From positions 1-37,971 of IMG/VR virus record IMGVR_UViG_3300032294_000767: a DNA stretch of 37,971 nucleotides; one strand, given 5' to 3'. The position numbers and the translations under genes were made by a program. Every line of letters begins with the position of its first letter. The stretch's first letter is position 1. Source of the stretch: a virus. Shown piece after piece: positions 98 to 37,971 of this stretch. The notes beneath the pieces are model-generated. The model saw only the letters and a list, made by a program, of their open reading frames with translations. It did not search any database and was not told the origin of the DNA.

Positions 98-99
98 CC

Positions 100-117
100 T
101 TGGGGCAGATGCCCTAA
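100..117 (+). other. Small hairpin in the gap after the large tail gene
   Basis: TTGGGGC (100-106), loop AGAT, GCCCTAA (111-117) forms a 7-bp stem with one G-T pair, three bases after the tail gene stop. No T-tract follows, so it is not a standard intrinsic terminator. It may protect an mRNA end or be chance. The second copy lies at 37948-37965. Confidence 0.35.
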
Positions 118-126
118 CGAAATCCT

Positions 127-11864: not shown

Positions 11865-12329
11865 ATGAAATATCCCTCTTTAGTAACAAAGAAAATCAGC
11901 GAGCTTTCACCAGCAAAATACAATCCTAGAAAAATTACTTCTGAGGCTTTAGGTAGGCTCACAAAATCTTTGAGCGAACTTGGGAATCTCCAGCCGATAA
12001 CTTGGAACGCAAAAACTGGGAACATAGTCGGAGGCCATCAGAGGTTGAAATGCTACGAAGCACTTGGAAAAGATGAGGTCGATGTGTGGGCGGTGTGGTT
12101 GGATGAGACGCAAGAGAAGGCGGCCAACCTTGCCCTTAACAAGTTGAGTGGTGAATTTGATATGCCACAACTCAAAGACATCCTAGAGGAACTGGATGCA
12201 GGGGAAATCGATATTGATATTACCGGGTTTAGCTTGGATGCGATTGGAAAGATGATGGAGGCAACTAGCCCAGAGGATCAAGAAGGTGGAGGGGGCGAGA
12301 AATGTTTGGCGTGTGGAAAGCCCTTGTGA
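11865..12329 (+). CDS. ParB/Srx-like N-terminal domain protein
   Basis: 154 residues. ISELSPAKYNPRKIT (NPRK at 20-23), then LSELGNLQPITWN and GNIVGGHQRLKCYEALG (GGHQR at 56-60) are the hallmark boxes of the ParB-like nuclease/CTPase fold. Phage proteins of this type sit beside terminase genes and are thought to act on DNA; partition is unlikely without a ParA. The C-terminus carries CLACGKPL, a lone C-x-x-C knuckle. It opens the packaging operon after the control region. Confidence 0.8.
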   Translation: MKYPSLVTKKISELSPAKYNPRKITSEALGRLTKSLSELGNLQPITWNAKTGNIVGGHQRLKCYEALGKDEVDVWAVWLDETQEKAANLALNKLSGEFDMPQLKDILEELDAGEIDIDITGFSLDAIGKMMEATSPEDQEGGGGEKCLACGKPL

Positions 12330-15092: not shown

Positions 15093-15312
15093 TTTCATTG
15101 GGCTACCCCTTGCCACCCTAACTTCTCTTCGTGATAAGTATGTTACTTGTTTAGAGGCGATTGCGGTGGCGGGTTCAAGCTATTCGATAGCTGGTCGTTC
15201 GTTTTCAAGAGCGAATCTCGGTGAGGTAAGAGATACGATTGCGGAATTGACCCTAGCCATTCAGTCTGCTAATGGTACTCGTATCCGCACAACTTACGCA
15301 AAGTTCTCGTGA
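15079..15312 (+). CDS. Head-tail joining protein, gpW-like
   Basis: 77 residues from ATG 15079; GTG 15067 would add four and overlap the terminase further. The pattern LTSLRDKYVTCLEAIAVAGS, SYSIAGRSFSRANLGE then VRDTIAELTLAIQ matches the lambda gpW family (L..L...y......G..yS..grs.t.anL.evr..i..L). gpW forms a ring under the portal after packaging. Position between terminase and portal is the lambda order. Confidence 0.75.
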   Translation: MAKGDFIGLPLATLTSLRDKYVTCLEAIAVAGSSYSIAGRSFSRANLGEVRDTIAELTLAIQSANGTRIRTTYAKFS

Positions 15313-18300: not shown

Positions 18301-18359
18301 AATACGATGCAGATGTGATGGAATTATACAAGAAATACAAAGGCCCAGAACTAAAATGA
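15309..18359 (+). CDS. Portal protein (lambda gpB-like) fused to a C-terminal metallopeptidase-like domain
   Basis: 1016 residues, about twice the length of lambda gpB. Residues 1 to about 480 are a lambda-type portal (VGLVRSILMKFASHTAANIS, IQGIEADRLGDPF, LLRNICLGLGIPY, SGPTARLEMQQAGRTFRRY). A Pro/Thr-rich linker follows (to about 615), then two phage head-protein modules: TPPQGARDAAKRALDVREGK...SPDTVRRMKAFFDRHE and GRDCGQDEGGTFGP. The last 200 residues contain HEYGHTLH (H934, E935, H938) and, 46 residues on, MEFVAEVF (E984, E988), a gluzincin-like zinc site. The extra domain could be packaged and injected, or act in maturation. No frameshift separates the parts. Confidence 0.88.
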   Translation: MKKAQLNLIDKAVAFLNPQGAVNRMIARQKLVNFSYDAVKYTRERKGPSSLSGAEDYRSNYDRVELMKRARDLAENVGLVRSILMKFASHTAANISYQARTENPEVNTEVEAYWAEWFDKCDLTTRHTGSTLMQVAMMSMLRDGDFLFCLVRDKDGNLKIQGIEADRLGDPFKVYTSLDLIGGIHIDRDTGAPSAYDIYNRSIGDFYTYQTTIPSSQAFHLFDPLRIDQYRGISAFHTAINDATDIYDIINFEKMAAKNASSQAGIVKRNNNNASDLSSLTNDEDLNGNTIKLEAIESGKISYLEPGEDIVFPDGPSRPSGAFAEFHKILLRNICLGLGIPYSFAVDPSAMSGPTARLEMQQAGRTFRRYQKLLDDKVLRPIKNIVIADGVARGLIENNVGSRTTRGIFNFGANVSIDLGRESASAISEFKTGLRTAADIYAERGQDFESAMRQRAIEAKLVKDLAGEYEVSADTISDIAAEGLTRDSQKAQATPAEGEQTPAGQPSDEDMLGGASLNGAQVASLINVINAVAMGAVSKEGAVSIITAAFPTISPDQARAIIAGVNIGTTIPTTKEEKQQIGKDQGGDTSGGSTPPAPEPTTPPTAPAGTSQKKSNLEILESLDPASIKMLIEGMMGGIELAKYDGIDFTPPQGARDAAKRALDVREGKPASQRGMTPVGIARARDLQNGVKMSPDTVRRMKAFFDRHEVDKKGATWDEQGKGWQAWHGWGGDAGYAWARKVVGQMEARDKKTEFVAGRDCGQDEGGTFGPDNKCAEGYGRPPLKGGYTPTRPGGKFPKDYKRPTPQGKTEKPKEDVKKDKASSKAKIIEKMKSGGLTNVELPADNDTALRIGKSYDLLRERGYDIPPPREIRVASLEGETLAQAQSSFILGQVADQNITFNSRFDKTGAGGFEQTVKKSVEQGWFQTDDLLSHEYGHTLHQKQIGYKEASSLIKEKFGRGGEGMKNSQIAGRVSDYATTNPMEFVAEVFAGHINGKKYDADVMELYKKYKGPELK

Positions 18360-19944: not shown

Positions 19945-20304
19945 ATGGCAACAAACATTGACGGTGGTGCAATTCGCACCTTTAACTTCGCTTCGGCGAT
20001 TTCGGCTTACCGATTCGTTCAAATCGGAACAGATGGATTGGCAGTAGCGGCAGTCTCCGGCACGGCTCGTGCAGTTGGCTCTACTATTTCCGATGTAGCG
20101 GCTGGTGACAACGGTGCAGTCAAGCTGTTCTACCCAACCTTTTTTGCAACTTGTGATGTGGCGATTGCCGCTGGTGGCCTTGTGGCTACTAGCACGGCTG
20201 GCCTTGTGACAACTGCGGCGGCCAATGTTGGCATCGTCGGAGTTGCTCTCGAAGGCGGTGCGGCTGATGCAGTTATCGAAGTCGCAGTTCCCTTAACCCA
20301 GTAA
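19945..20304 (+). CDS. Capsid decoration-type protein (DUF2190/gpD-position)
   Basis: 119 residues, Ala/Gly/Val-rich with no charged clusters, consistent with a small beta protein. AAAGGATAATACTAAAATG gives a good ribosome site. The sequence (RFVQIGTDGLAVAAVSGTAR, VGIVGVALEGGAADAVIEVA) resembles the DUF2190-like head decoration family. It lies directly before the major capsid gene, the place of lambda gpD. It probably stabilises the expanded shell. Confidence 0.75.
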   Translation: MATNIDGGAIRTFNFASAISAYRFVQIGTDGLAVAAVSGTARAVGSTISDVAAGDNGAVKLFYPTFFATCDVAIAAGGLVATSTAGLVTTAAANVGIVGVALEGGAADAVIEVAVPLTQ

Positions 20305-20333
20305 TTTAACCAACCAAGAAAGAATATAAATAT

Positions 20334-21305
20334 ATGGCATACGTAAGTGGTGGTACAACGATTCGAGCAGACATCAACCAAGCGTTGATCGAAGCTCCTC
20401 AAGCCGATGTCGGTTTGATCGGTTCGCAACTTCTCCCTTTGCAGAATGTTGATGCAAAGAGCGGAACATACCTAAAGGTTCAACTCGGCGGTGCAGAGTT
20501 GCTGACCAACAATGCGGCGGCTCGTGATTCTGGTTCGGGATACAACCGAGGGATTCGCTCCTTCAGTTCTGCGAACTACAGCACGGACGAATTTGGACTT
20601 GAGGAGATCGTGCCGGACGATACCGCTAAAGACCTAAACAGGTTTTTTTCGTACGAGGCAGAAACTGCCAAGTTCTTGCTCCGTCAGTTGAAACTCTCCC
20701 ACGAGAAGCGGGTTTCCGATCTTCTCTGGGCTGGTTCGACTCCCTTCACCATCGCTGACCAGACTCGTGCAGTAGCCTACACGAACACGAACATCGCCAC
20801 GGTTGATGTGGCTCGTGACGTAGCGGCCGCCAAACTCGCTCTTAACCAGTATGGTTATGAAGTGAATTGTATTGCGATGTCTGCCAATGTGTTTGAGTTG
20901 ATCAGGCGCTCCACCCTCCTACAAAATCAGTTCTTCGGAGTTATCTCCAATACTGGTGCAAGGTTGTTGAGCGAAGCTGAAATTGCGGCGGCTCTCGGAG
21001 TTCAGAACCTCCTCGTTGGTCGTGCGGCGATCAATTCTGCTGGTAAGAACAAAGCCTACTCTGGTTCGTTCGTTGTTCCAGATACCAAGATCATCGTAGG
21101 TCAGATTGCTGGTGGTGAGTTCACCGCTGGTGGAATCGGACGCACCTTGGTTTGGTCGGGTGACTCGGCTGGTGGTTTCGTTAGCGAAAGCTATCGTGAT
21201 GAAGCTCGCCGTAGCCAAGTGCTCCGGGTTCGTATGAACACGGACGAAGTTGTGATTGACCCGAACGCCGCCGTTCGCATCACCACCAACTACTCCGCTA
21301 GCTAA
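20334..21305 (+). CDS. Major capsid protein (HK97-fold)
   Basis: 323 residues. Position after protease, scaffold and decoration genes, a good ribosome context and the composition of a coat protein all support this. Recognisable pieces are the N-terminal arm (IRADINQALIEAP), the E-loop/P-domain region (FGLEEIVPDDTAKDLNRFFS, then RQLKLSHEKRVSDLLW), an A-domain segment (NCIAMSANVFELIRRS, ALGVQNLLVGRA) and a C-terminal strand with DEVVIDPNAAVRI. The N-terminus is too short for a large cleaved delta domain, which fits the separate scaffold. The operon ends just after it with a strong terminator. Confidence 0.9.
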   Translation: MAYVSGGTTIRADINQALIEAPQADVGLIGSQLLPLQNVDAKSGTYLKVQLGGAELLTNNAAARDSGSGYNRGIRSFSSANYSTDEFGLEEIVPDDTAKDLNRFFSYEAETAKFLLRQLKLSHEKRVSDLLWAGSTPFTIADQTRAVAYTNTNIATVDVARDVAAAKLALNQYGYEVNCIAMSANVFELIRRSTLLQNQFFGVISNTGARLLSEAEIAAALGVQNLLVGRAAINSAGKNKAYSGSFVVPDTKIIVGQIAGGEFTAGGIGRTLVWSGDSAGGFVSESYRDEARRSQVLRVRMNTDEVVIDPNAAVRITTNYSAS

Positions 21306-21335
21306 AGATTGTTGTTGGTTGTTTCCTCTGAAGAA

Positions 21336-21374
21336 GGGGGAGTGGGTGAATAACCCGCTCCCCCTTTTTCTTTT
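21336..21374 (+). terminator. Strong intrinsic terminator after the major capsid gene
   Basis: GGGGGAGTGGGT (21336-21347), loop GAATA, ACCCGCTCCCCC (21353-21364), then TTTTTCTTTT. The 12-bp stem has one G-T pair and is very GC-rich. It separates the highly expressed head genes from the glycosylation island, giving lower or independent expression downstream. Confidence 0.92.
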
Positions 21375-21376
21375 AA

Positions 21377-21411
21377 TTGACATCCCCTAATAATTAGAAA
21401 TCCTAGTCTAA
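21377..21411 (+). promoter_or_regulatory. Possible promoter of the glycosylation island
   Basis: TTGACA (21377-21382) is a perfect -35 box placed just after the terminator and 30 bases before the first island gene. No good -10 box lies at normal spacing; GAAATCCTAG occupies that place. The same GAAATCCT occurs before three other genes, so a phage-specific or activator-dependent promoter is conceivable. Confidence 0.35.
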
Positions 21412-23067
21412 ATGAAAATCCCTATTTCCCTTTACCTAATCGCTGGAAATGAAGAAGCCCACATCAAGCGAGTCATTGAATCCTTTAAGCCCATCGCAGA
21501 AGAAGTTATTGTTTGTATGGCTAGGGGGTCAGCTACGCCAGACAAGACAGAAGAGATCGCCCTTTCGCTTGGGGCTAAAGTCATTCATTACAAAAATAAG
21601 AAAACTGATTGGCCACACATAGACGATTTCGCAACAGCCAGAAATACAGCCCTCGATGCTTGCAAAAACGAATGGTCTATTTGGGTAGATGCAGATGATG
21701 TAATGGCAGAGGATGGTGAGAAGGTTTTGCAAGAGGGATTGGAACAAGCCGAGAAAGTAGGAGCTGAAATTGTTTGCTTTCGTTATCTGGTTGAGAATGC
21801 CGGGTTGAATCCTATTCGAGAGATGGCCTTGCGTAAGGGGTGCGGTAGGTGGAGGAACAGAGTCCACGAAGCCCTTGAGCCAAACGATAGGAACAAACTA
21901 CTAGCCATTGATAAGATATTTAGGATTCATCGCCCGATTACAAGCAAGGCAGATTCGGCAGATAGAAACCATCGCATCCTAGCAGACGAGCTAACCTCTA
22001 CCCCATTCAATCTTTACTATCAGCACCAAGAGTTTTTCTTGAGGGGTCAAGTGGATAAAGCGATTGAGGTGGGGGAAAGAGCCTTGGCATTCCCAGACCT
22101 AGACGAGACTCTTAAATATGAGCTTCTATGCAACCTTGGCAGATGCTCACCCAATGAGAAGCGGTTTAGATATTTGGGGGAGGCGATTGGGGTCAATCCT
22201 GTTCGCAGAGAGGCTTATTTCTATTTGATGGCAGAGTATTCGGCTAGGGGAGACTGGGCAAAGGCTTGGCATTCTGGAAGGGCTTGTATGGCTATGCCCA
22301 AGCCGAATCTTCACTATTGGAATCAAGTTCACGCAATCTACGAATGGCAAGCCCTCGATGGATACCGAATGGCCTCTATCTGCTACAACCAAAAAGAGGA
22401 AGTAGCCAAGCTGATGAATATGTATCCCAAGCCTAAGATAAGTATTGTCCACGCTACAAGGGGAAGGCCACAGTTGGCCTTCCAGCGGAAGATGCAATGG
22501 CTAGCCTTGGCAAAAGAACCCCTAGCAGTTGAGTGGTTGTTTATGGTCGATCACGATGAAGCAGTTGATTACACCCCGCACGAAGGCAAAAGAGTTAATC
22601 CGGGTGGAATTATCAATGCTTGGAACGAGGGGGCAAAGATGGCTAAAAGCGAGGTTATTGTGCAAATGAGCGATGATTGGAGTCCACCGAGGTACTGGGA
22701 TGCCCTAATTTTGAGCAGAATCGACAACCTAGAGGCCGAAAGAGTGCTGGCAGTATCAGATGGCCTTCGGACTGATAAACTGCTTTGTATGGCTATCCTA
22801 ACGCAAAAGAGACTCCGCAAGCAGGGGGGGTATATGTTCCACCCAAGCTACCAAGATTCGGACGGCATATACTCCGATAACGAGTTCACAGAAAGAGCTT
22901 ATGCCGATGATTGCGTAATTGAGGCTAGGGACTTGGTGTTTAGGCACGAAAACCCTATGTTTGCAGGGGGTAACCCAGACGAACAACTAAAGAACCACAA
23001 CAAGCCAGAATACTACGAGAAAGGAAAAGCTATCTATGAAAAACGCAAAGCAAATAATTGGGTGTAG
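21412..23067 (+). CDS. Two-domain glycosyltransferase (GT2-like) with TPR-like middle
   Basis: 551 residues. Domain 1 (1 to about 230) is a GT-A glycosyltransferase: ISLYLIAGNEEAHIKRVIES, DDFATARNTAL and the metal/nucleotide-sugar site WVDADD (93-96). The middle (about 200-330) is helical and TPR-like. Domain 2 (from about 339) starts ISIVHATRGRPQLAFQRK and has a second acidic site, MSDDWSPP (D421, D422), then GGYMFHPSYQDSDGIYSDNE. It probably builds a glycan on a virion or cell-surface acceptor. It opens a five-enzyme island behind the capsid terminator. Confidence 0.85.
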   Translation: MKIPISLYLIAGNEEAHIKRVIESFKPIAEEVIVCMARGSATPDKTEEIALSLGAKVIHYKNKKTDWPHIDDFATARNTALDACKNEWSIWVDADDVMAEDGEKVLQEGLEQAEKVGAEIVCFRYLVENAGLNPIREMALRKGCGRWRNRVHEALEPNDRNKLLAIDKIFRIHRPITSKADSADRNHRILADELTSTPFNLYYQHQEFFLRGQVDKAIEVGERALAFPDLDETLKYELLCNLGRCSPNEKRFRYLGEAIGVNPVRREAYFYLMAEYSARGDWAKAWHSGRACMAMPKPNLHYWNQVHAIYEWQALDGYRMASICYNQKEEVAKLMNMYPKPKISIVHATRGRPQLAFQRKMQWLALAKEPLAVEWLFMVDHDEAVDYTPHEGKRVNPGGIINAWNEGAKMAKSEVIVQMSDDWSPPRYWDALILSRIDNLEAERVLAVSDGLRTDKLLCMAILTQKRLRKQGGYMFHPSYQDSDGIYSDNEFTERAYADDCVIEARDLVFRHENPMFAGGNPDEQLKNHNKPEYYEKGKAIYEKRKANNWV

Positions 23068-23290
23068 GAAAGCAAAAAAGGGAGAGAATACGAAGGGGCT
23101 TGGTATGATTACCTTCGGCAAGTCTCGTCTCGACAAAACCAAGTATGTGCTAGTCGATATTACCTATGATGCAAGGGCAGGGAAGGAATTGTATGAGGCT
23201 GGGATGATTGCCTTGAAGCACGACCCAGAATCCGTGATTGAGTACGCAATCAAAAAAGCATTAGCTGGGATGGCGAAATGCAAGAAGTAA
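23036..23290 (+). CDS. Hypothetical small protein in the glycosylation island
   Basis: 84 residues, overlapping the glycosyltransferase by 32 bases and the methyltransferase by 13. A second start at 23105 would give 61 residues with a compact fold (MITFGKSRLDKTKYVLVDIT, IEYAIKKALAGM). It is not recognised. The tight overlaps suggest co-translation with the island. Confidence 0.55.
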   Translation: MKNAKQIIGCRKAKKGENTKGLGMITFGKSRLDKTKYVLVDITYDARAGKELYEAGMIALKHDPESVIEYAIKKALAGMAKCKK

Positions 23291-23886
23291 CCATTCACGA
23301 TTCATTTGGAAAAGCCCTTGCAAAATATAGTGAGGGGCTGGATGTTGGCCTAGAGATCGGGGGAGGAACCGGGGATGGCTCAACTCAATGTATTAGGACA
23401 AAAAGGCTATTCAGCATAGAGAACCACCCAGACCGCATTGGCAGGCACTCAATGAATCTATCCGCAAGAGGTGGCGTTGCCATCAACGGCACAGCAACCC
23501 TATCAAAGCTATGGATGAACAAGAACGATATCGAGGAGTTTTACCGAACCACCAAAACAAACCTCAACCAATACCCCCTCGAAACAATCCTAGGATGGCA
23601 CAATGTCTGCCTAGAGACTGCTTTCCCTTATTCAACCAACGCAATCGAGGACATTCACTTTGAGCATAATGTGGACTTTAACTTTGTGCTAATTGATGGT
23701 TCTCCTTTTTCGGGCGAGGCCGAGTTGCGTTGCGTCCGTCCTTTCCTAGCGGAGAAGGCAATCATCGCCTTGGACGATGTGAACGACATTAAGAACTTGG
23801 CGAACTACAACAAGCTCAAGGGATTTGCTAAACTTCTTTGGGAGGATTGGTCGGTCCGTAATGGTGCGGCCATCTTTGAGCTATGA
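23278..23886 (+). CDS. SAM-dependent methyltransferase (class I)
   Basis: 202 residues. VGLEIGGGTGDGSTQ (23-37) is the AdoMet-binding loop, ending the first strand with an acidic residue; LFSIENHPDRI gives the acidic end of strand 2; FVLIDGSPFSGEAELR and AIIALDDVND are later strands with conserved Asp residues. The order resembles FkbM/Mtase_24-like enzymes. Within a glycosyltransferase cluster, sugar O-methylation is the natural guess, though protein methylation cannot be excluded. It overlaps both neighbours. Confidence 0.75.
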   Translation: MQEVTIHDSFGKALAKYSEGLDVGLEIGGGTGDGSTQCIRTKRLFSIENHPDRIGRHSMNLSARGGVAINGTATLSKLWMNKNDIEEFYRTTKTNLNQYPLETILGWHNVCLETAFPYSTNAIEDIHFEHNVDFNFVLIDGSPFSGEAELRCVRPFLAEKAIIALDDVNDIKNLANYNKLKGFAKLLWEDWSVRNGAAIFEL

Positions 23887-24545
23887 AAATAGCTTGGCTA
23901 GCGGCACATAGGGCAATAGGAGAACAGCATTTTAGAAAGAAAGAGCTTTGTGACTGGATTAAAAATATCAAGAATGTAATGAGGCAAAATTCTGGCATCA
24001 TTTACAGAATTTACATTATTGAACAAGCTGACGAAAAGGACTGGAATAGGGGTATTTTATATAATGCAGGATATTATGTGGCGGCCACTGACGACAGGAA
24101 CTTTCTTTTTATAAATTGTAACACAGATTATACCATTCCAGAGGAGCCTCTCCCAGATGAGTTTTATATGCACAAAGATGGATTTTTAGATTTGCACGGA
24201 TATGAGTGTGGGCTTGGGTCTTTTTGTGCGTTTTATATGGATGCTTTTGAAAAGTGTAATGGATTCCCAAACAACTTTTGGGGATGGGGTGGCGAGGATT
24301 ATGCCATTAAAAAAAGGATAGATTTTTCTGGATTGCAAATTCATAGGCCAAGCAATCTATACAAAAAATGGATAAAAGAAAAACAAGATCATCCAAGGGA
24401 TGACTCAAAGAATGCGCACAATACAGAACTCGCCAATCAAATGACCAATGAAACAATGTGGGAAAGTGGACTTAATAATCTTGCTTATGAAATTGAGTCA
24501 ATTCGTCGCTATGATGAAATCGTTTGGATAAGGGTAAAATGCTGA
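23883..24545 (+). CDS. GT7 beta-1,4-galactosyltransferase-like protein
   Basis: 220 residues. DWNRGILYNAGYYVA (53-67) matches the FNRxxLxNVGF box, FINCNTDYTIP (76-86) the acidic donor-site region and NGFPNNFWGWGGEDYAIKKR (126-145) the hallmark GWGGEDDD box of the GT7 galactosyltransferase family, here GWGGEDY. The enzyme would transfer Gal or GalNAc from a UDP donor. There is no transmembrane anchor, unlike animal relatives. The gene is AT-richer than its neighbours (32-37% G+C in sampled lines versus about 45% just before), a sign of separate acquisition. Confidence 0.85.
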   Translation: MKIAWLAAHRAIGEQHFRKKELCDWIKNIKNVMRQNSGIIYRIYIIEQADEKDWNRGILYNAGYYVAATDDRNFLFINCNTDYTIPEEPLPDEFYMHKDGFLDLHGYECGLGSFCAFYMDAFEKCNGFPNNFWGWGGEDYAIKKRIDFSGLQIHRPSNLYKKWIKEKQDHPRDDSKNAHNTELANQMTNETMWESGLNNLAYEIESIRRYDEIVWIRVKC

Positions 24546-25306
24546 CAATCTTTACCATCGTTCTTAATGGGATGCCATTTATTGAAAGGCATCTAGCAGA
24601 GTTTCAAAAGCTGAAGATTCCTTGGAGATGGAGGATTGTTGAGGGCGTTAGCGAGCCAGTTGGATGCACCCGATGGTGCAAGCAAATACCCGACAAATGG
24701 CACAAGGATTTCAAGAGCATAGACGGAACGCACGAATATCTTGAAAGCATCCAAGGCGGGAATGTTGTTGTCTATTCGCAAGGCAAGCCCTTTAACGGAA
24801 AGCTAGAGATGATTCAGCAAGCCTTGTTTGGGGTGGATGATGGGGTTGTAATGGAGGTGGACGCTGACGAGATGTGGAGAGCAGAACAGATCGAGGGGAT
24901 TTACGAATGTCTAAAGGGGGCAGAGGATGGGGCAACGATGCAGTTTCATTGTAACTTCTTTGTGGGAGAAAATAAGCGAGTGGTTACTAGGGAGGGCTAT
25001 GGCTCGAACTGGTATGAGTGGATGAGGGCTTGGAAGTGGGGCAAGAATGTTTGCTTTACAAGTCACGAACCGCCCCGTTTAAACATCCAGTCTCGCCTAG
25101 TCCCAAGGGGAGTGACTGAAACTTGGGGGCTAGTATTCAATCACTATGCCTATGCCATCCAGAAGCAAGTCGAGTTTAAGGAGGATTTCTATGGCTACAA
25201 GGGTCTGGTGGATGGATGGAAGGAATTGCAAAAGACTATCGGCCCAGTTCGATTGAGCGAATACTTTCCTCACCTACACGATAAGAGCGTAGCCGATGAC
25301 TGCTAA
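24539..25306 (+). CDS. Glycosyltransferase, GT2-like
   Basis: 255 residues from ATG 24539; an in-frame TTG at 24524 is possible. FTIVLNGMPFIERHLAEFQK is a GT-A N-terminal strand-helix, EGVSEPVGCTRW a donor-loop region, and VVMEVDADEMW (DADE 108-111) the metal-binding acidic motif. FTSHEPPRL later resembles an acceptor-site segment. It overlaps the GT7-like gene by seven bases and the next by 11, so it is part of the same transcript. Specificity is not predictable. Confidence 0.78.
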   Translation: MLTIFTIVLNGMPFIERHLAEFQKLKIPWRWRIVEGVSEPVGCTRWCKQIPDKWHKDFKSIDGTHEYLESIQGGNVVVYSQGKPFNGKLEMIQQALFGVDDGVVMEVDADEMWRAEQIEGIYECLKGAEDGATMQFHCNFFVGENKRVVTREGYGSNWYEWMRAWKWGKNVCFTSHEPPRLNIQSRLVPRGVTETWGLVFNHYAYAIQKQVEFKEDFYGYKGLVDGWKELQKTIGPVRLSEYFPHLHDKSVADDC

Positions 25307-25967
25307 AACAATCAAATACTCACAGAGGCTAGGAGACATCATCCGATGCCTCCCGGCTTGCAAATATCTAGCCGACCAAGGCCACGAGGTGTTCTTTGAT
25401 TGCTTGCCACAGTATCACGGCATCTTCGAGATGGTTTCCTATGTAAAGGTTGGGAACAAGGGCGATGTTATAGACCTTGAAATTTGGCCTAACAAATACC
25501 AAGAATATCGTTTCTCAAATAAGACTTGGACAGAGTTCGTGTATGCCCACCCAGAGATTAACAAGGCAGACCCAAAGGATATTCTATTCGACAAGCTGGA
25601 CGATGCCCCAGCCAAGGGATTACCAGAAGCCTATAATATGGTTGCCCCATTTGGAATAAGCCAAGGGCATAAGAGAGACCCCTTGCAAATCATCGTTGAA
25701 GCAAGGAAGAAGTGCGGTGGAGATAATTTCTTTGTCCTATGCCAAGGCGGTACGGAGATTAAGGGATTACAAACTTACACAGCCCCAAGCATCCCAGAGA
25801 TGGCTAGGGCAATAAGAGGGGCTAATGAGTTTTGGTCAATAGATAGTGGGCAAATGGCAATAGCGGCTGGGGTGAGAAAAGATAAGAAAGTTGTTTATTT
25901 TCCCCAAACCATAGATCCATTCGACAAGGACAATATCTTTATTTGGGATAGTGTAGAACTTGGATGA
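25296..25967 (+). CDS. GT-B glycosyltransferase-like (GT9/heptosyltransferase-type)
   Basis: 223 residues. YSQRLGDIIRCLPACKYLAD then GHEVFFDCLPQYHGIF resembles the N-terminal Rossmann domain of ADP-heptose:LPS heptosyltransferases (GDii..lP....l...gh.v). PSIPEMARAIRGANEFWSID then SGQMAIAAGVRKDKKVVYFP matches their C-terminal donor-binding part. It is shorter than the usual 320-350 residues. It closes the island. Confidence 0.68.
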   Translation: MTAKTIKYSQRLGDIIRCLPACKYLADQGHEVFFDCLPQYHGIFEMVSYVKVGNKGDVIDLEIWPNKYQEYRFSNKTWTEFVYAHPEINKADPKDILFDKLDDAPAKGLPEAYNMVAPFGISQGHKRDPLQIIVEARKKCGGDNFFVLCQGGTEIKGLQTYTAPSIPEMARAIRGANEFWSIDSGQMAIAAGVRKDKKVVYFPQTIDPFDKDNIFIWDSVELG

Positions 25968-25994
25968 TTGACAAGGTGACAAGGTTTCTTGGGT

Positions 25995-26312
25995 ATGGCA
26001 GGGGCAATTTCAACATCGTTCTTCACAGCCGATCTACGGCAAATGATTGGAGACTTATACACAGTTGTCACCGGGCTTGGCTCTTCTGCTGTATCTGCCT
26101 CTATTACCGACCTAACCTATGCAACAGATTTGGAGGTGGGTGGTGAGATTATTAGAGTATCTCAAAGCCTTGTGGTGGACGCTACGGCTGTATCTGTTCC
26201 GGTAATTGGGAATGTTGTCACAATAGGTGGGGTGGGTCGCATGATCGCCAACTTCACGACCTCATCGGACGCACTCTCCTACACGATTGATATAGCCGAC
26301 CAGACAACTTAA
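25995..26312 (+). CDS. Probable head-tail connector protein
   Basis: 105 residues from ATG 25995; TTG 25989 would add two. Beta-rich, with DLTYATDLEVGGEIIRVSQS and VPVIGNVVTIGGVGRM. It is unrecognised at sequence level, but it is the first gene of the tail block and has the size of lambda FII-type connectors. The assignment rests on position and composition. Confidence 0.55.
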   Translation: MAGAISTSFFTADLRQMIGDLYTVVTGLGSSAVSASITDLTYATDLEVGGEIIRVSQSLVVDATAVSVPVIGNVVTIGGVGRMIANFTTSSDALSYTIDIADQTT

Positions 26313-26313
26313 A

Positions 26314-26724
26314 ATGAGTGTTGCCATTGAGAGAGAGCTTGAGGACAGCCTCGCCTCGGCCTTTAGCATAAGTGGCCTTAATATCACAAAAAGCAACTAC
26401 GATGGGGAGCGGCTTTTGCCAAGCCTAACGATTGAGGTGGGAATAGGCTCGGAGGAGCTTTCCCCTAACTCTGGCGTGTTTAAGTGTGGAGGGACTTTGA
26501 CCTATTCAGCACGAGCCGATACAACGAGCAGACAAGTCCTAGACTCAACTTGGTTCTCAATTCTCCAAACTTTCTACCAAAGCCCATCAATAGAAAGCAT
26601 CCTAACCACAAACGATCTGAAGGTATTCCAATGCAAGGTTATGACCGAATCACCCGGCATCATCAATGATAGGCGTATTTGGACTAAAACAACCTCACTA
26701 GACATCCTTTGTACATCCAAATGA
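26314..26724 (+). CDS. Tail completion/terminator-like protein, paralogue A
   Basis: 136 residues. It aligns along its length with the next gene: LLPSLTIEVGIG, SGVFKCGGTLTYSARADTT, FSILQTFYQSPS, LKVFQCKVMTESPGIINDRR. It starts two bases after the preceding stop and overlaps the next by ATGA. Size and place fit tail-completion or tail-terminator proteins (lambda Z/U position). The function is inferred from synteny. Confidence 0.65.
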   Translation: MSVAIERELEDSLASAFSISGLNITKSNYDGERLLPSLTIEVGIGSEELSPNSGVFKCGGTLTYSARADTTSRQVLDSTWFSILQTFYQSPSIESILTTNDLKVFQCKVMTESPGIINDRRIWTKTTSLDILCTSK

Positions 26725-27203
26725 CATCACCCCAGTTTATCCTAGAAGATGCGTTGGCAGGGCTATTAACGCCAATTTCGGGGCTTAATGTGTATATTTC
26801 AAATAGAAGGGGTGGACGATTCTTCCCATATGTAACGATTAGTTCCCAGATAGGGGGTCAGCTTATCGTCCCAGCATCGGGTGTATTTGAGATACCAGTT
26901 GAGTTAAGTTATTCAGATTCAACTGTTAGGACTACCCAAGCGACATTTGAGACTAACTATTTTAATATATTCCAAGCCTTATACGAGGAGGGCTCAACCT
27001 TGGCGGCTAGGATTGAGAGCGAGACAACTAGCCTTAAAGTTTATATGGCAAGGATAACCAGCCAAACCCCAACTATCAGAAACGATAAGAGGGCTTGGGT
27101 GCGTGGGTTAAGTTTGCGTGTTATAGGAACAAGGCTATTCCCTTACATAGCATCCCTAGATTTTTCAGACCGTCGCAACTCGCAATATATCGGGGCGATT
27201 TAA
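26721..27203 (+). CDS. Tail completion/terminator-like protein, paralogue B
   Basis: 160 residues from ATG 26721 (ATGA overlap). Corresponding segments are FFPYVTISSQIG, SGVFEIPVELSYSDSTVRTT, FNIFQALYEEGS and LKVYMARITSQTPTIRNDKR, so it is a tandem duplicate of the preceding gene with a longer C-terminus (RLFPYIASLDFSDRRNSQYI). Two related copies may occupy adjacent rings at the head-tail junction. Confidence 0.65.
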   Translation: MTSPQFILEDALAGLLTPISGLNVYISNRRGGRFFPYVTISSQIGGQLIVPASGVFEIPVELSYSDSTVRTTQATFETNYFNIFQALYEEGSTLAARIESETTSLKVYMARITSQTPTIRNDKRAWVRGLSLRVIGTRLFPYIASLDFSDRRNSQYIGAI

Positions 27204-27219
27204 CAAGGAGGATGAGAAT

Positions 27220-28605
27220 ATGGCACTAGCAGTATTAGACGGAAATCAGTCAGCAACCTTTCTTTCTTCAGTAGTAACTGGGGGAGAGCATATCGTAGCC
27301 CATAGCGTTGTAAGCTTTGGGAGCAACGCAATCTCAAATATCGCAACCGCAGTCAGCGGAACTACTGTATGTGTTGGGTCAATCTCTATCTCTGGAACGC
27401 CTAGCGTTACTGGGTCGGTTTCTGTCCTTAACTTCCCCGCATCGCAAACCACGACCTTCGGGGCAGTTACCGGGAGCGTGTCGGTTCTTAATTTCCCCGC
27501 CTCTCAATCCGTAACCTTCGGCCAAGCGGTTGTCTCTGCTTCAAATATAACTGGTCTAAATAATTCAGTTGGAACGGATGGAAGCACGCCAGCCTCAACA
27601 AGCTTTATCAAGATTGGAGGCCACCAAGACGGCTCAAACTCAGTAGAACATATCGTTCACGTCTCGGCTGGTGGGGCGATGAAGGTAGATGCGAGTGATT
27701 CAACTGTTACTTTTGGGGCGATTAGAGGAACGGTCACCATCGGAAACACAGTCACGATTGCTGGAACAGTCACAGCTAACCCAACTGGAACACAGACGAT
27801 TGCTGGTACGGTGACGGTTGGGCAGATTCAAGGCTACCAACACGCAACAGCCGGAACTAGCGGCCCATACAATGCCGATGTTATTTTAGTTGGGGAAGAT
27901 ATTGAATCAAGTAAGGCGGGCGGATTGGTTGTTATTCCAGCCGCAAGAGATGGCGGCGTGCTTGGTGGACGAACTAGCCAAGGGGATGCACCTATTTGCG
28001 TTTATGGAGACAATGGAGGTGCTGTAACCATCTCTGGCACAGTCACCATCGGCTCTGCCCTCCCCGCTGGAACAAACAGAATCGGCGTGGTGACGATTGG
28101 CAACATTCAGCGTGCTGGCGATGGTGTTCAAACTTCATTACTTACAGAGGCTGGAAGCGGTTATCTTCTAACTAAAAGCACTCTAAACGCAGGGTCGGAA
28201 CAAATCGGCTCAGTCACCGCATCCATTAGCGGTACAGTTCCCATCTCCATTTCCTCCGTCACAGTTGGCAACAGCGTCACCATCGGCTCCCTCCCTTCGA
28301 TTAGTGGGACGGTCACAGCCAACACCTTCGCCTTGCAAGGCACGGCAGTAACCACCTCTAACTTTACCAGCACCACCGCCTCTACCGTGCTGGCTAACTT
28401 CAATGCGACAAGGGAAGTTTTAACTATTTTTAACGAGGGGGCTGGTAATTTGCATATCTGTGCAGGGGCAACTTGCACGACCATCGCCTATCAAGTTCGC
28501 CTATCTGCGGGGGATTACTACGAAGTGCCGAACCACCAAACGACGATCACCCACTCGGCTGTATTCGCAACAGCGGGCACGGCACGCATAGTCCAGATTA
28601 GTTAG
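27220..28605 (+). CDS. Repeat-rich beta structural protein
   Basis: 461 residues with a strong ribosome site (AAGGAGG). Short Thr/Val/Ile/Gly repeats recur throughout: GTVTIGNTVTIAGTVTA, ISGTVTIGS, SVTVGNSVTIGS, and a duplicated SVLNFPASQ. These resemble stacked beta strands of a beta-solenoid or fibre. The last 90 residues form a distinct domain (EVLTIFNEGAGNLHICAGAT...) as seen in capsid or tail ornament proteins. It is probably a virion fibre or decoration protein; no lyase or depolymerase motif is evident. Confidence 0.75.
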   Translation: MALAVLDGNQSATFLSSVVTGGEHIVAHSVVSFGSNAISNIATAVSGTTVCVGSISISGTPSVTGSVSVLNFPASQTTTFGAVTGSVSVLNFPASQSVTFGQAVVSASNITGLNNSVGTDGSTPASTSFIKIGGHQDGSNSVEHIVHVSAGGAMKVDASDSTVTFGAIRGTVTIGNTVTIAGTVTANPTGTQTIAGTVTVGQIQGYQHATAGTSGPYNADVILVGEDIESSKAGGLVVIPAARDGGVLGGRTSQGDAPICVYGDNGGAVTISGTVTIGSALPAGTNRIGVVTIGNIQRAGDGVQTSLLTEAGSGYLLTKSTLNAGSEQIGSVTASISGTVPISISSVTVGNSVTIGSLPSISGTVTANTFALQGTAVTTSNFTSTTASTVLANFNATREVLTIFNEGAGNLHICAGATCTTIAYQVRLSAGDYYEVPNHQTTITHSAVFATAGTARIVQIS

Positions 28606-29637: not shown

Positions 29638-29994
29638 ATGGCCGCTACAAGTATAGGACTTTCTACTGTTGCCTTTGGATTAGCCGCTGAAACTGGCGTT
29701 GTTATTCAGAGCTTCTCGCTTACACAGACAGCAGAAACAACGGAAGTCTCAAAGCACAATGGCACTCACTCTGCTGTTGCGTTTTCTGCTTACAAAAGGA
29801 ATGTTAGTCTTTCTGGTAATTGTAGTGGTGCTGTCGCCTCCTCTGGAATTGGTGGAACCCTTGCCCTAACTGGCAACACAACCGCAGTATCTAGCGGAAC
29901 TTACTTTGTGACGGATGTTTCTTTCTCACAAGCCGCCGACGGCTTCAACAGCTTTGACCTATCAGCAACCGCATACGATGGATTAAATACATAA
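29638..29994 (+). CDS. Tail tube-type protein, paralogue A
   Basis: 118 residues preceded by AAAGGAATATCAAATG. Ser/Thr/Ala-rich beta protein sharing with the next gene an MAATxIG start, GVVIQSFSLTQTAETTEVSK, AVAFSAYKRNVSLSG and a closing ADGFNSFDLSATAYDG. Position before the tail chaperone is where major tail (tube) proteins lie. I call it tube-like on synteny and size, not on a motif. Confidence 0.6.
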   Translation: MAATSIGLSTVAFGLAAETGVVIQSFSLTQTAETTEVSKHNGTHSAVAFSAYKRNVSLSGNCSGAVASSGIGGTLALTGNTTAVSSGTYFVTDVSFSQAADGFNSFDLSATAYDGLNT

Positions 29995-29995
29995 T

Positions 29996-30349
29996 ATGGC
30001 CGCCACAATCATCGGAAATAGCACAGACCTAGCCTTCGGGATTTCCTCCGCACAAACCGGAATGGTGATTCAGTCCATCTCTTCCTCTGCCTCTGCTGAT
30101 GCAGTTGAGCTAAAGAATAAGGGAGGGGATGTTACGGCGGTAGTGTTCCGCAACAAGAAAGTCACCTACTCGGTAGAGGGTGCATATACAACCTTTAGCG
30201 GTAGCGTTGGGGCAACCATCACAGTATCTAACGGAACTAACTATGATCTGTCTGGTGCGGCCTATATTACTGAAACCGCCAGAAACCGTAGTGCAGACAA
30301 CTTTGAGACGGTATCCTTCACAGCAGTTCGATACGATGGTATAAGTTAG
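29996..30349 (+). CDS. Tail tube-type protein, paralogue B
   Basis: 117 residues starting one base after the preceding stop. Matching segments are MAATIIG, GMVIQSISSSASADAVELK, AVVFRNKKVTYSVEG and ADNFETVSFTAVRYDG. It is a tandem duplicate. One copy may form the tube and the other a cap, ring or surface variant. Confidence 0.6.
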   Translation: MAATIIGNSTDLAFGISSAQTGMVIQSISSSASADAVELKNKGGDVTAVVFRNKKVTYSVEGAYTTFSGSVGATITVSNGTNYDLSGAAYITETARNRSADNFETVSFTAVRYDGIS

Positions 30350-34309: not shown

Positions 34310-37300
34310 GTGAACTCTCAAGAGCTATTTCTGGATGTGTCTAGCGGGAGATTTTTGGATGGTCAAAGCACCATCCCAATTAGCAAGCCAACAATATTTT
34401 CTGATGAGCAAAGGAATCTAAAAATCAATGTTCTTCAAGTAAATAAAAATGTTGTTAGCCCAAAGCAACCGGCTGATGACAGTTCTTTTAGGGCTAGGCT
34501 TGGTACTACGGCATTGAAACTGTCAGATGGTCAAGCCGTAAGCACACAGCCAATCAACACGACTAGAGCTACTGCAACAATAGTGACATCGCCAGCATCT
34601 AGGACAGTTGGTTCAGCTAGGATATTTACATATACACCAGTAACAGCTAATATTATTTCCTCGATAGCAACCTTTCCAATCGTTACTGGGGTATTTAGAT
34701 TGAATGTTGATTATGTTGCACCAGTCACAGCAAGTGTTACGGCAGGGTTTGCAATACCCACGCCAACCATAATTACTCGACCCCTTCAATATGTGGATTC
34801 TGGGATTGCGGCTAGTTATGAATTATCAGACAATTCAGTAAGAGTTAATCCAGACCTAGCGCAATCATTAAACACGACAACAACAGCAACATTTGTTTCT
34901 TCTATTTTGTCTGGTGAGGTTGTTGGTATAAATATTATAAATAGGGGCAGGGGCTATCCAAATGGAACTTATAGCTTAAATGTTTCTCCATCTATAACAA
35001 CTGGGGCAAGCTTTACCGCAACAGTGTCTGGTGGTGTGGTTACAACAATATCAATCGTCACTGGTGGATTTGGTTATTCAAACGGCCCATTTGATTTAGT
35101 ATTTAGTGCAACTACTGGAACTCCTGCGGCGGCAACCGCATCAGCCGTAAGCGGCTCAATCAATCAAATAACTATTACTGATGGTGGAACTGACTATTTG
35201 ACTGCCCCAAGCGTAACCCTTGCCGCACCAACAGCAGGAACAGCGGTTGCAACAGTTGTTGCAAGTGGTGGTTTTATCCAGTCACTAACAATAACAAGCG
35301 GAGGATTTGGATATACAAATGCTCCAACTGTAACGCTTTTCCAGCCCACTAAATCATTGGCTAGTCTTACTAATCAGATTGTAGATTTGGGTTGTAAGGG
35401 GGTTAATACAAACACGATTTCACTTGAATTCAGCGACCCAGATGGAGGTCAGACACCACCCACATCTAAAAGACCAGTTGCATCAATACAATATACTGGT
35501 GATAGCACCTTGTGGAGAATTATTATTAGCGATGTTGGGTATGGCTATTCCGCAACTCCAACAGTATCACACGGAGATATTTTGGCATATTTGCCAGTAA
35601 TAAAATCTGGGTTTTCTGTAACGGATTTAACAGATGTACGAAATGTTAATAATGTATTATCATTGCTTGGCGATACCACAGCTTATGGTGGGGGCAGTTT
35701 TAGTAATGTTCAAAACAGCACTATTACTACTTTTTCTGAAACTGCTGCAAAAATTAACCTTGGTGGACTTAAAATTGGATTTGACCCCCGCACATTATTT
35801 GTCGAGAATAGCAAATGGATTACTGGCGGCTATTCACTTGATAACGCATTCCGATATGTAGTTGCAGACAAAACATCTAGAGGTCAGAGGAGTGATGACA
35901 AAAGAATTCAAAAGGCCCTTCAGTCGGCATCGGGAGTAATTAACAAATCAGCGGAGCTTCTAAATTCTGTTGGCGTTGTTGTAACTGGCTCTATTTACGA
36001 CCCCCAACAAAATAGAGTATTTACACCAGCAGAATCTAGCGGGCTACCTAGTTCTGGGGCTATTAGTGCGGAAGCGTATAAAAAATATTTCCCCCAAGGA
36101 ACAAAAACAAGCATAAGGGGTGTTACTGTGGTCGGCAGTAAGGTTGGCCTACCTGCAAGTGCGAACACTAATGATGTCTCTAATTTCCCAAATCCACAAC
36201 ACGATAAATTTGCTGGTAAAAGTGCCTTGGTTGCCCTTGTCCCAAAAGATAGGAGCATTGTCCCGACAAGATATGCGGTTATGCAGATTGTTATTCCACC
36301 AAGAGATACATCGTATCTAGTTTCTGTTTTAGACTTTAATCCAAGCAATCAATCTTATGTGGACTTTGGAGGTGGAAGATATACACCAGAGTTTAGGGTA
36401 TTGGATGCTGGTGCTGGATATCCAGCAACATATACTAAATCATACGACCTAGTTGAGCTTGGTTCGCTGACCAGCGACCCAGTTATATTTGAATTTAGCG
36501 GCACTACTGTTTATACTATGCCAGCGACTCTTGCCGATGGATTTATTGATACGGCTTTTTCCAATCCAGCCAGCATCGCCACTCGCCCCGGCCCAGCCGC
36601 TGTGCAATATCTATTGGGTGGCGGGGGTGTTGGATACACCAGAAGCACAAATATTGCATTCCAAAGCGTCCAAACTCTTGGCTTGGTTCGATCTGTCAGT
36701 CTGCTTAATGCTCCAGCCTCTTATTCAGATGGGACATATAGCTGTTCTGTGCAAGCCCCTGCCTCTGGAACGGCGGCACAAATAGACTTAATTGTTAGTA
36801 GGGGCGGGACAAAATCTCAAATTGTTGTTGTAAATGGTGGTAGCGGATATACTTCTGCTCCCATTGTTACCGCCCCAGCACCAAACTTTATTAGTGGTCA
36901 AGTGAGAAGTGTTTCTGTTTTGACTCAACCTCAAGGATATTCCATTGGGCAATCATTCTCCCTTTCAGTTCCGACCAGCCCGATTGACGGAGGACAAGCC
37001 GCTGTTCTGTTCACACAATCTGACTCTGGCTCTGTAAGCGTAGTTATTGAAAACCCCGGCTTTGGATACCAAACAGCACAAGTTGCCACAGCACCAGACC
37101 CAGATAGGAGATTAGAATCTGGATTCTTAAATACCCTCGAATTGCAAAATAGCCCTAACGGATACATAGTTGGACAATCTTACTCCTTGCAAATTGGGCA
37201 AAGCCCACAATCGGGAGGAAACGCAGTTGCAAATCTTATTAAAGAATCAGAATCTAAATATATATTCCAGATAGTCAATGCTGGTGCTGGATATGTCTCT

Positions 37301-37945
37301 GCCCCTATTGTAACAGCACCAAGCCCAGACGCACCCAATGGACTGCTTTCGTCAGTAGCTATAACGACTATGGGTGCTGGGTACGCACCGGGAACATATG
37401 AAGCCACAGTCGGCACAGCTCCGTCTGGGGGGCAGACTGCCAAGGTTGATTATGTTGTTGATGAGAATTTGAGTGGTGAATATATTATTGTGGAGAGCGG
37501 TAAGGGATATACTTCAGCACCATCTATTTCTGTTCCGACCCCAGCAGGGTCTGTCATTTCCTCTATTTCTATCACTTGTGCTGGCTCTTATTATACTAGC
37601 GATAATTATGGTGTGACAATCCAAGATGCGACTGGTTCTGGTGCTAGGCTAGATGTCCCGACAATACAGAATGGGCAGTTACAAAATATCAATGTTCTAG
37701 ATAAGGGTTATGGTTTTACAGATAACCCAGCAATTATTTTCCCCAAGCCTCCCATACCACAAACTCCACAGTTACAAAGAAATCAACTAGACCTAACCTT
37801 CAACATCACCACCGCCTCGGCCAACGCCATCTTATCCACAGCTACGCAAAGAGACATCCTAATGGAAGTCTACGAGACGGACGGAACGAACGAACAAGTT
37901 GTGGCACAAGCCACTGTAAATCTAGCCAAGCGAGTTTTAGAATAG
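34310..37945 (+). CDS. Large repeat-rich tail protein (fibre or tip)
   Basis: 1211 residues from GTG 34310. Gly/Tyr repeats of two alternating kinds occur at about 207-345, 400-415 and 698-1140: type A like GYSxGxYxLxVxxAPxSGxxA and type B like INxGxGYTSAPIVTAPxP. At least 16 units are visible. A non-repeat domain (about 430-690) includes KINLGGLKIGFDPRTLF and YAVMQIVIPPRD. The last 60 residues (LDLTFNITTASANAILSTAT) are a separate end domain. Such GGxGYxxAP repeats occur in large phage structural proteins. It is probably a tail fibre or tip that sets host contact. The gene is continued by bases 1-97. Confidence 0.82.
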   Translation: MNSQELFLDVSSGRFLDGQSTIPISKPTIFSDEQRNLKINVLQVNKNVVSPKQPADDSSFRARLGTTALKLSDGQAVSTQPINTTRATATIVTSPASRTVGSARIFTYTPVTANIISSIATFPIVTGVFRLNVDYVAPVTASVTAGFAIPTPTIITRPLQYVDSGIAASYELSDNSVRVNPDLAQSLNTTTTATFVSSILSGEVVGINIINRGRGYPNGTYSLNVSPSITTGASFTATVSGGVVTTISIVTGGFGYSNGPFDLVFSATTGTPAAATASAVSGSINQITITDGGTDYLTAPSVTLAAPTAGTAVATVVASGGFIQSLTITSGGFGYTNAPTVTLFQPTKSLASLTNQIVDLGCKGVNTNTISLEFSDPDGGQTPPTSKRPVASIQYTGDSTLWRIIISDVGYGYSATPTVSHGDILAYLPVIKSGFSVTDLTDVRNVNNVLSLLGDTTAYGGGSFSNVQNSTITTFSETAAKINLGGLKIGFDPRTLFVENSKWITGGYSLDNAFRYVVADKTSRGQRSDDKRIQKALQSASGVINKSAELLNSVGVVVTGSIYDPQQNRVFTPAESSGLPSSGAISAEAYKKYFPQGTKTSIRGVTVVGSKVGLPASANTNDVSNFPNPQHDKFAGKSALVALVPKDRSIVPTRYAVMQIVIPPRDTSYLVSVLDFNPSNQSYVDFGGGRYTPEFRVLDAGAGYPATYTKSYDLVELGSLTSDPVIFEFSGTTVYTMPATLADGFIDTAFSNPASIATRPGPAAVQYLLGGGGVGYTRSTNIAFQSVQTLGLVRSVSLLNAPASYSDGTYSCSVQAPASGTAAQIDLIVSRGGTKSQIVVVNGGSGYTSAPIVTAPAPNFISGQVRSVSVLTQPQGYSIGQSFSLSVPTSPIDGGQAAVLFTQSDSGSVSVVIENPGFGYQTAQVATAPDPDRRLESGFLNTLELQNSPNGYIVGQSYSLQIGQSPQSGGNAVANLIKESESKYIFQIVNAGAGYVSAPIVTAPSPDAPNGLLSSVAITTMGAGYAPGTYEATVGTAPSGGQTAKVDYVVDENLSGEYIIVESGKGYTSAPSISVPTPAGSVISSISITCAGSYYTSDNYGVTIQDATGSGARLDVPTIQNGQLQNINVLDKGYGFTDNPAIIFPKPPIPQTPQLQRNQLDLTFNITTASANAILSTATQRDILMEVYETDGTNEQVVAQATVNLAKRVLE

Positions 37946-37971
37946 CCTTGGGGCAGATGCCCTAACGAAAT
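37849..37971. repeat. Terminal direct repeat (circular-contig overlap), copy 2
   Basis: Exact copy of bases 1-123, covering the 3' end of the large tail gene and the following hairpin. It shows the molecule is circular or circularly permuted and complete. Confidence 0.93.

Follow-up and report, generated by a model that had tools for sequence, protein, structure and literature searches.

Phage-encoded virion glycosylation has been described in mycobacteriophages: the available portions of one paper report three tandem glycosyltransferases downstream of an O-methyltransferase in cluster O phages, said to modify capsid and tail tube (PMC11600133), and those of another mention C-terminal glycans on capsid and tail tube (PMC12619734). 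Che8, Corndog and Myrna are further cases, from Freeman et al. 2023 as relayed by excerpts of PMC11600133, PMC12363180 and PMC12619734. Among flagellin-modifying enzymes, GmaR, according to the accessible part of PMC9638930, has its flagellin GlcNAc transferase domain at the N-terminus and behind it a TPR domain for which flagellin recognition is proposed, and the TPR part of FlmG was shown to bind flagellins, according to an excerpt of PMC7591256. Here we describe a six-gene cassette of glycosyltransferase- and methyltransferase-type genes in the IMG/VR virus record IMGVR_UViG_3300032294_000767, all 37,971 nucleotides of which were analysed (hereafter the window). When comparing related phages, we found that three core glycosyltransferase genes are inherited with the tail genes, not with the head genes or the methyltransferase gene, and that what is exchanged is mainly a slot between the methyltransferase and a second GT2-type gene, holding a GT7-type gene in the window. 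With a probability that we put at about 0.58, the cassette serves late cytoplasmic O-glycosylation and methylation of a tail protein of the phage itself, most likely the tube, as a variant of mycobacteriophage-type virion glycosylation.

The cassette and its enzymes

The cassette consists of six + strand open reading frames (ORFs) in 21412-25967, directly after the capsid terminator and with neighbours overlapping by 4-32 nt, much as an earlier note on this sequence had described the run. Four are glycosyltransferase-type, one is O-methyltransferase-type and one is without family; the note had spoken of a five-enzyme set, and five proteins are indeed enzyme-like, although the genes number six and the first codes for two GT2-like domains.

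21330..21370, + strand: rho-independent-type terminator, an 18-pair stem and then a T-rich tail, between the capsid gene and GT2x2
21412..23067, + strand: GT2x2, 551 aa, with a GT2 domain at 1-196, a TPR region at about 200-311 and a C-terminal GT2-like domain at about 340-551
23036..23290, + strand: sm84, an 84-aa protein without family
23278..23886, + strand: MT, 202 aa, S-adenosylmethionine (SAM)-dependent O-methyltransferase-type by predicted fold, with a weak Pfam match
23883..24545, + strand: the slot and its gene here, a GT7-type protein of 220 aa, from ATGA at 23883-23886 (MT stop and slot start) to ATGCTGA at 24539-24545 (GT2b start)
24539..25306, + strand: GT2b, second GT2-type protein of about 255 aa, by PF00535 in family members
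25296..25967, + strand: compact GT9-fold protein (GT9), 223 aa, by predicted fold

The terminator that the note had placed ahead of the cassette was confirmed, since the region 21300-21400 folds at -44.6 kcal/mol (z -7.0) and none of 200 shuffles did equally well. Promoter-like sites in 20300-28000 were not above shuffles (8 seen, shuffle mean 10.6).

The glycosyltransferase and methyltransferase classes that the note had read from motifs hold up in family and fold searches. For GT2x2, called there a two-domain GT2-like enzyme, the N-terminal domain lies above the Pfam cut-off (PF00535, Glycos_transf_2, 2.7e-14, 53.9 bits against 23.3), and the C-terminal half matches PF13704 at 340-395 below it (1.6e-5, 25.7 bits against 27.5). 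GT2 enzymes carry a conserved acidic D-x-D-type motif; WVDADD of GT2x2 (W91 to D96) is such a motif and is invariant in 22 sequences, as is SDDW (S420 to W423). When the GT2x2 profile was searched against PDB sequences, its best solved glycosyltransferase relatives were GmaR (1.3e-11 over 1-196) and SunS (1e-8 over 6-232), an enzyme that modifies a small peptide, and TPR proteins matched over 200-311. GT2b, for which we took the ATG at 24539 that is common to relatives as the start (the mechanical start being the TTG at 24524), is supported as a second GT2-like protein by its family, 14 of whose 19 members match PF00535 at E<=0.1, the best at 7.8e-7, and by a D-x-D-E motif invariant in 19 sequences; the window protein itself stays below the cut-off (15.9 bits against 23.3), and its profile resembles that of GT2x2 weakly (E 0.012, probability 3.5).

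The SAM methyltransferase of the note is borne out by fold: the AF2 model of MT (pLDDT 87.9) matches rat COMT with Z 15.3 (149 residues at 2.2 Å), and this predicted fold firmly points to a COMT-like class I SAM O-methyltransferase. Its Pfam support is weak: 16 of 17 members match Methyltransf_24 at E<=0.1, the best at 0.0065, and the window protein scores 14.4 bits against a cut-off of 26.3. The GT9-like protein likewise stands by predicted fold and not by sequence: its AF2 model (pLDDT 90.5) gives Z 15.4 with WaaF (217 of 223 residues at 3.2 Å), 14.6 with WaaC, 14.4 with a GT9 protein and 12.9 with TibC, a heptosyltransferase that has a protein acceptor, and no Pfam family was found at E<=0.1 in any of 19 members, in which an RLGD motif is invariant. 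Profiles of MT, GT2b and GT9 found nothing among PDB sequences at E<=0.1, and the MT profile matched none of the Methyltransf_24 proteins of the slot. The GT7-type protein lies above the Pfam cut-offs with both models (PF02709, 9.9e-15, 54.4 against 23 bits for the C model; PF13733, 1.7e-8, 34.6 against 27 bits for the N model) and aligns with beta4GalT1 at 1.3e-22 over 18-212, keeping the GWGGED box by which the note had recognised it. For sm84, no Pfam or PHROG family was found below E 0.05.

None of the six proteins has a hydrophobic stretch (top 19-aa mean 1.19), and their Pfam matches include no transport, polymerase or polyprenol family. Among the 41 window proteins scanned, with some small ORFs lying outside that scan, there was neither a sugar-nucleotide gene nor a base-hydroxymethylating gene. 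This agrees with the note's suggestion that sugar donors come from the host, from which two relatives with an NAD-dependent epimerase in the slot depart.

Conserved framework and exchangeable slot

Relatives were collected by scans with capsid, terminase, GT7 and GT2x2 queries, giving 225 loci, many of them on the same contigs; since the scans kept the best 80 of 235, 217 and at least 212 relatives, the set is weighted towards close relatives. All 51 distinct contigs that the capsid or terminase queries brought up have GT2x2 no more than 2.5 kb from the capsid gene (as do 74 of 74 when the remaining loci and the window are added, a count that includes loci found by GT2x2 itself), so the cassette does not appear to be the inserted block that the note had taken it for. 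Of 68 distinct GT2x2-to-tail intervals, 56 contain MT, GT2b and GT9 and 12 are without one or more of them, and sm84 was detected in 61, a figure from which tblastn may have missed some.

The core genes are intact and under purifying selection. Full-length ORFs were found for GT2x2 in 77/77, MT in 78/79 (truncated in L194), GT2b in 70/70 and GT9 in 55/55 cases; sm84 reaches at least 90% of its length in 59 of 73, and 13 of the remaining 14 are a 74-aa form. Median dN/dS against the window (pairwise Nei-Gojobori, pairs with dS outside 0.05-1.5 dropped) was 0.050 for GT2x2, 0.076 for MT, 0.031 for GT2b, 0.071 for GT9 and 0.074 for GT7 (one pair), and 0.148 for sm84 and 0.144 for the capsid gene, placing GT2x2 lower than the capsid. 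With full-length ORFs and enzyme medians of 0.03-0.08, the degraded remnant that the note had named as a reason to drop its interpretation is excluded. The comparison with related phages that it had proposed shows a framework common to the relatives and a slot of varying content.

The borders of this slot are exact to the codon. Homology between the window and L005 ends at 23886 and resumes at 24538, and against the slot-less L163 it ends at 23885 and resumes at 24539; these breakpoints coincide with the start/stop overlaps. In 52/52 filled blocks with MT, an ATGA holds both the MT stop and the slot start, and the gene before GT2b stops within the first seven GT2b bases in 81/81 blocks, whether filled or empty, as ATGCTAA or ATGCTGA in 66 of them. 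Our census of these 81 distinct blocks, which required GT2x2 and GT2b (intervals without GT2b were dropped) and included loci found with GT2x2 and GT7 queries, gave 27 empty slots, 49 with methyltransferase-type content, 3 with GT7 (the window among them) and 2 with a radical SAM/B12 protein, a weakly DUF7796-like protein and an NAD-dependent epimerase. The methyltransferase-type slots comprise 20 with C2mt, 7 with Methyltransf_24 (M24), 6 with FkbM, 13 with FkbM and Methyltransf_24, 2 with C2mt and an unassigned ORF (both blocks without MT) and 1 with FkbM and a DUF7796-like protein; C2mt (22 blocks) was called a methyltransferase by eye, its representative being without Pfam match. Among the 48 blocks from capsid or terminase loci, the commonest slots were FkbM with M24 (13), empty (13), C2mt (9) and M24 (5), followed by FkbM (3), the radical SAM set (2), GT7 (1), FkbM with D7796 (1) and C2mt with GTx82 (1). 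Phages whose GT2x2 has only 62-63% identity to that of the window carry a GT7 protein 98% identical to the one in the window, which is direct evidence of module exchange.

Two further kinds of variation were seen near the cassette. Between the genes for the major capsid protein (MCP) and GT2x2, 19 of 74 blocks with MCP carry an insert of about 0.8-1.3 kb (e.g. L102:11565-12720 and L103:8454-9484), absent from the window, that codes for a serine-, threonine- and glycine-rich protein of 120-280 aa and in several cases also a protein of about 95 aa; some of these insert proteins look LamG-like by eye, and the one from L102 has no Pfam match. At L054:2821-5865, GT2x2 and sm84 are kept and MT, GT2b and GT9 are replaced by a GT-like protein, a pair of thiamine-enzyme-like proteins and one radical SAM-like protein, as judged by eye.

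The record itself ends in a perfect direct repeat of 123 nt (window 1-123 and 37849-37971) and therefore looks like a circular assembly of about 37.8 kb that is probably complete. Library scans of the window proteins gave a GpA-type large terminase (TerL), a lambda-type portal and, at 20334-21305, the MCP (PHROG major head protein, 1.7e-26), and ARAGORN found no tRNA genes in the window. In 50,697 phage records searched by tblastn, MCP had no match and TerL matched 734, all below 60% identity, the top-ranked at 33%; MT, GT2b, GT9 and GT7 had no match in isolate phage records, and GT2x2 had partial matches in 10 of them at 23-27% identity. Genome contigs scanned for a host with the MCP alignment and with TerL yielded no relative. 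The portal gene (15309-18359) codes for 1016 aa, with a long C-terminal extension past the portal domain and a separate PHROG match at 643-770, and genes for an N6/N4 DNA methylase (8331-9407) and a ParB-like protein (11865-12329) both stand ahead of the terminase genes.

Inheritance of the glycosyltransferases with tail genes

Downstream of the cassette are genes for two serine/threonine-rich (S/T-rich) proteins of 117-118 aa, then a pair of small ORFs that overlap and a gene for a tape-measure-like protein of 430 aa, called as tail genes by gene order and composition only; those downstream proteins that were scanned against PHROGs gave no tail call. Two features matter here:

29638..29994, + strand: TT118, probable tail-tube protein and candidate acceptor, S/T-rich (29%), by composition and its position before the two overlapping small ORFs and the tape-measure-like gene; no PHROG match
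34310..37945, + strand: large tail-end protein, whose presence tracks the GT2x2 class

Two classes of GT2x2 can be told apart: A, with 32 genes that differ from the window by at most 17%, and B, with 56 genes at a distance of 34-42%. GT2x2 distances correlate strongly with those of the probable tail tube (Mantel r 0.93, n 35) and of the small tail gene after the tube (0.92, n 32), and little with those of MCP (0.16, n 77), MT (0.36, n 75), sm84 (0.19, n 74) and dec119 (0.23, n 72), the 461-aa protein described below being at 0.51 (n 25); these correlations predate the discordant records L057 and L065. Of 39 genomes, 37 pair a tube type with the matching GT2x2 class (15 A/A, 22 B/B); the other two, L057 and L065, combine a class B GT2x2 with an A-type tube. 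A previous, exceptionless count (15/15 and 20/20) had been overturned when whole-record searches brought up these two; class B TT117 entries, being the same ORF as TT118, were not used.

The trees, built in quick mode, tell the same story. A minimum of 17 switches between the GT2x2 classes is needed on the capsid tree (77 rows) and of 14 on the MT tree (75 rows), and the tube type changes 3 times on each of the GT2x2, GT2b and GT9 trees (39, 34 and 34 rows) and twice on those of T107 and T136, against 8 for MT, 9 for sm84, 11 for the capsid and 8 for dec119 (trees of 34-36 rows). It follows that the three glycosyltransferases travel with the tail module, and that MT, sm84 and the slot swap more freely even though they lie in between. 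Phylogenetically independent pairs pointed in the same direction in 5-6 of 6 cases on the capsid tree (p 0.03-0.06), in 3-4 of 4 on the MT tree and in 3/3 on the dec119 tree, the last two being too few to test. The part of GT2x2 most divergent between the classes is the TPR region (50% identity, the two GT2 parts having 59% and 73%), as expected if the TPR region follows the acceptor. The large tail-end protein was matched in 7/7 class A records, the window included, and in 0/15 class B records; an early gene used for comparison was matched in 21 of the 22.

Tandem paralogous tail-tube-like genes (window 29638-29994 and 29996-30349) occur in 12/12 A-type-tube records, and 19 B-type-tube records give a single match. 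Upstream of them, the window codes at 27220-28605 for an S/T-rich (26%) protein of 461 aa with repeated motifs, whose counterpart in 17 relatives varies from about 235 to 578 aa.

Candidate acceptor, rival readings and known systems

We favour a tail-protein target because the GT2-TPR half of GT2x2 resembles GmaR and SunS and the glycosyltransferases are co-inherited with tail genes, because the GT9-fold matches include TibC, because the cassette sits among structural genes without promoter-like sites above shuffles, because the six proteins have no hydrophobic stretch and no transport or polyprenol family among their Pfam matches, and because GT2x2 stands behind MCP in 51/51 contigs with a dN/dS below that of the capsid. 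In the proposed mechanism, a cytoplasmic one acting late, GT2x2 would hold its acceptor by the TPR region, a role also put forward for the TPR domain of GmaR and demonstrated with flagellin for that of FlmG, and would add the first sugar. Further sugars would come from the second GT2-like domain of GT2x2, from GT2b and from the GT9-fold enzyme, and the common MT would O-methylate the glycan. The slot cargo, one to three interchangeable genes (methyltransferases, GT7, or radical SAM and epimerase), would alter the outer decoration while the start/stop overlaps are kept. The data show the gene content, the fold or family matches, conservation, selection, the exchange of the slot and the co-inheritance with the tail; late timing, enzymatic activity, step order, acceptor, sugars and benefit are what we infer. 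The methylated glycan on the phage's own virion proposed in the earlier note is thus partly supported and remains the best reading, and the alternative it offered, a change of the host surface against superinfection, appears less favoured.

Several observations weigh against the tail-protein reading. Among class B genomes, the distances of GT2x2 track those of MT (r 0.87, n 46) and scarcely those of the tube (0.20, n 20), so that it is mainly the A/B split that carries the signal; in class A, GT2x2 distances track both the tube (0.81, n 15) and MT (0.68, n 29). L057 and L065 break the concordance, the tail-tube identity of TT118 is probable from gene order and composition, and the tracking of the large tail-end protein by GT2x2 class would also suit a receptor-related role. 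Nor is the pathway a constant one, since 12 of 68 intervals lack MT, GT2b or GT9. The activity of GT7 is uncertain because the DVD stretch, the metal motif of beta4GalT1, is deleted in the HMMER alignment, where no DxD metal site was found (an NCN is seen nearby by eye); this qualifies the galactosyltransferase-like call of the note. Co-inheritance might also be neutral linkage, with breakpoints favouring the capsid terminator and the MT/slot stretch, in which case it would be silent on the acceptor; this would be compatible with a tail target and would remove one of its supports. The adjacency of GT2b and GT9 to the tail genes, the free exchange of slot and MT and the two exceptions all suit such linkage, but the link is much weaker for sm84 and MT, which are situated between GT2x2 and the tail, and the TPR region is the part most divergent between classes; we regard it as a substantial possibility, somewhat short of even.

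Other targets can be weighed on the same evidence. The enzymes might modify the host surface (e.g. lipopolysaccharide (LPS) core or capsule), freeing progeny from debris and blocking superinfection, so that the tail link would reflect the receptor used. The GT9-fold enzyme is indeed nearest to LPS heptosyltransferases and the GT2x2 class follows the tail-end protein (7/7 against 0/15), but the first enzyme resembles the protein-modifying GmaR and SunS, the six proteins have no hydrophobic stretch and no transport or polymerase Pfam family, and a place among structural genes suggests late expression, which makes this target rather unlikely. An acceptor on the virion other than the tube, namely the capsid, a capsid-decoration protein or the S/T-rich 461-aa protein, is unlikelier again: the cassette adjoins the capsid gene, the 461-aa protein is 26% S+T and length-variable, and mycobacteriophage capsids are reported as glycosylated in excerpts of PMC11600133, PMC12619734 and PMC12363180, yet the correlation of GT2x2 distances is low with MCP (0.16) and dec119 (0.23), and that with the 461-aa protein (0.51) is lower than that with the tube (0.93). 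Phage glycosyltransferases that hypermodify DNA exist, as an excerpt of PMC12619734 states, and this phage encodes an N6/N4 DNA methylase, but with no base-hydroxymethylating gene in the scanned set and glycosyltransferases co-inherited with tail genes, glycosylation of modified DNA bases seems very improbable.

If the tail-protein reading is taken further, the cassette may, as a tentative proposal that we hold below even chances, be a glycan-diversifying virion locus, in which a constant acceptor-binding primer is matched to the tail type and a cargo slot with ATGA entry and ATGCTRA-like exit lets phages differ mainly in the methylation or capping of their tail glycan; by analogy, its logic would be comparable to that of bacterial O-antigen loci. 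As far as our searches show, two things are new, namely the common framework whose exchange slot has codon-exact borders and the inheritance of its glycosyltransferases together with the tail; no publication on this phage group or such a slot was found in the literature searched, mostly open papers, which makes this weak evidence of novelty. If true, the tail-protein reading would carry virion glycosylation beyond actinobacteriophages into a large group of uncultured phages, provide a natural series of cassettes in which single decorating enzymes differ on a common framework, make co-inheritance with TPR divergence a testable way to predict the acceptors of phage glycosyltransferases, and prompt one to ask what makes environmental phages vary their surface sugars, be it the host, grazers, binding to particles or masking of receptors.

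Compared with known systems, gtr-type phage serotype conversion uses a membrane flippase and a membrane glycosyltransferase, unlike the six cassette proteins with no hydrophobic stretch. The slot GT7 shares GWGGED with beta-1,4-galactosyltransferases (GT7) and differs by the deleted DVD, and the GT9-fold protein shares the fold of the heptosyltransferases WaaC, WaaF and TibC (Z 12.9-15.4) at 223 aa against about 300-390 and without a Pfam match in 19 members. GT2x2 has an N-terminal glycosyltransferase domain followed by TPR as in GmaR, the Listeria flagellin GlcNAc transferase, but carries a second GT2-like domain where GmaR has linker and antirepressor domains; SunS, derived from the SPbeta prophage, aligns only with the first 232 of its 551 residues (6-232, E 1e-8). 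FlmG, the Caulobacter flagellin glycosyltransferase, also joins TPR and glycosyltransferase in one protein with a filament-forming acceptor, according to an excerpt of PMC7591256, but is of GT-B type with the TPR first, so we draw an analogy and claim no homology. With the mycobacteriophage system the cassette shares phage-encoded tandem glycosyltransferases, a methyltransferase and, as proposed here, a virion protein acceptor; it differs in that the glycosyltransferases occupy the stretch from the capsid gene to the tail genes, GT2x2 occurs across the relatives examined and a codon-exact slot is framed. The likeness that we draw is one of gene content.

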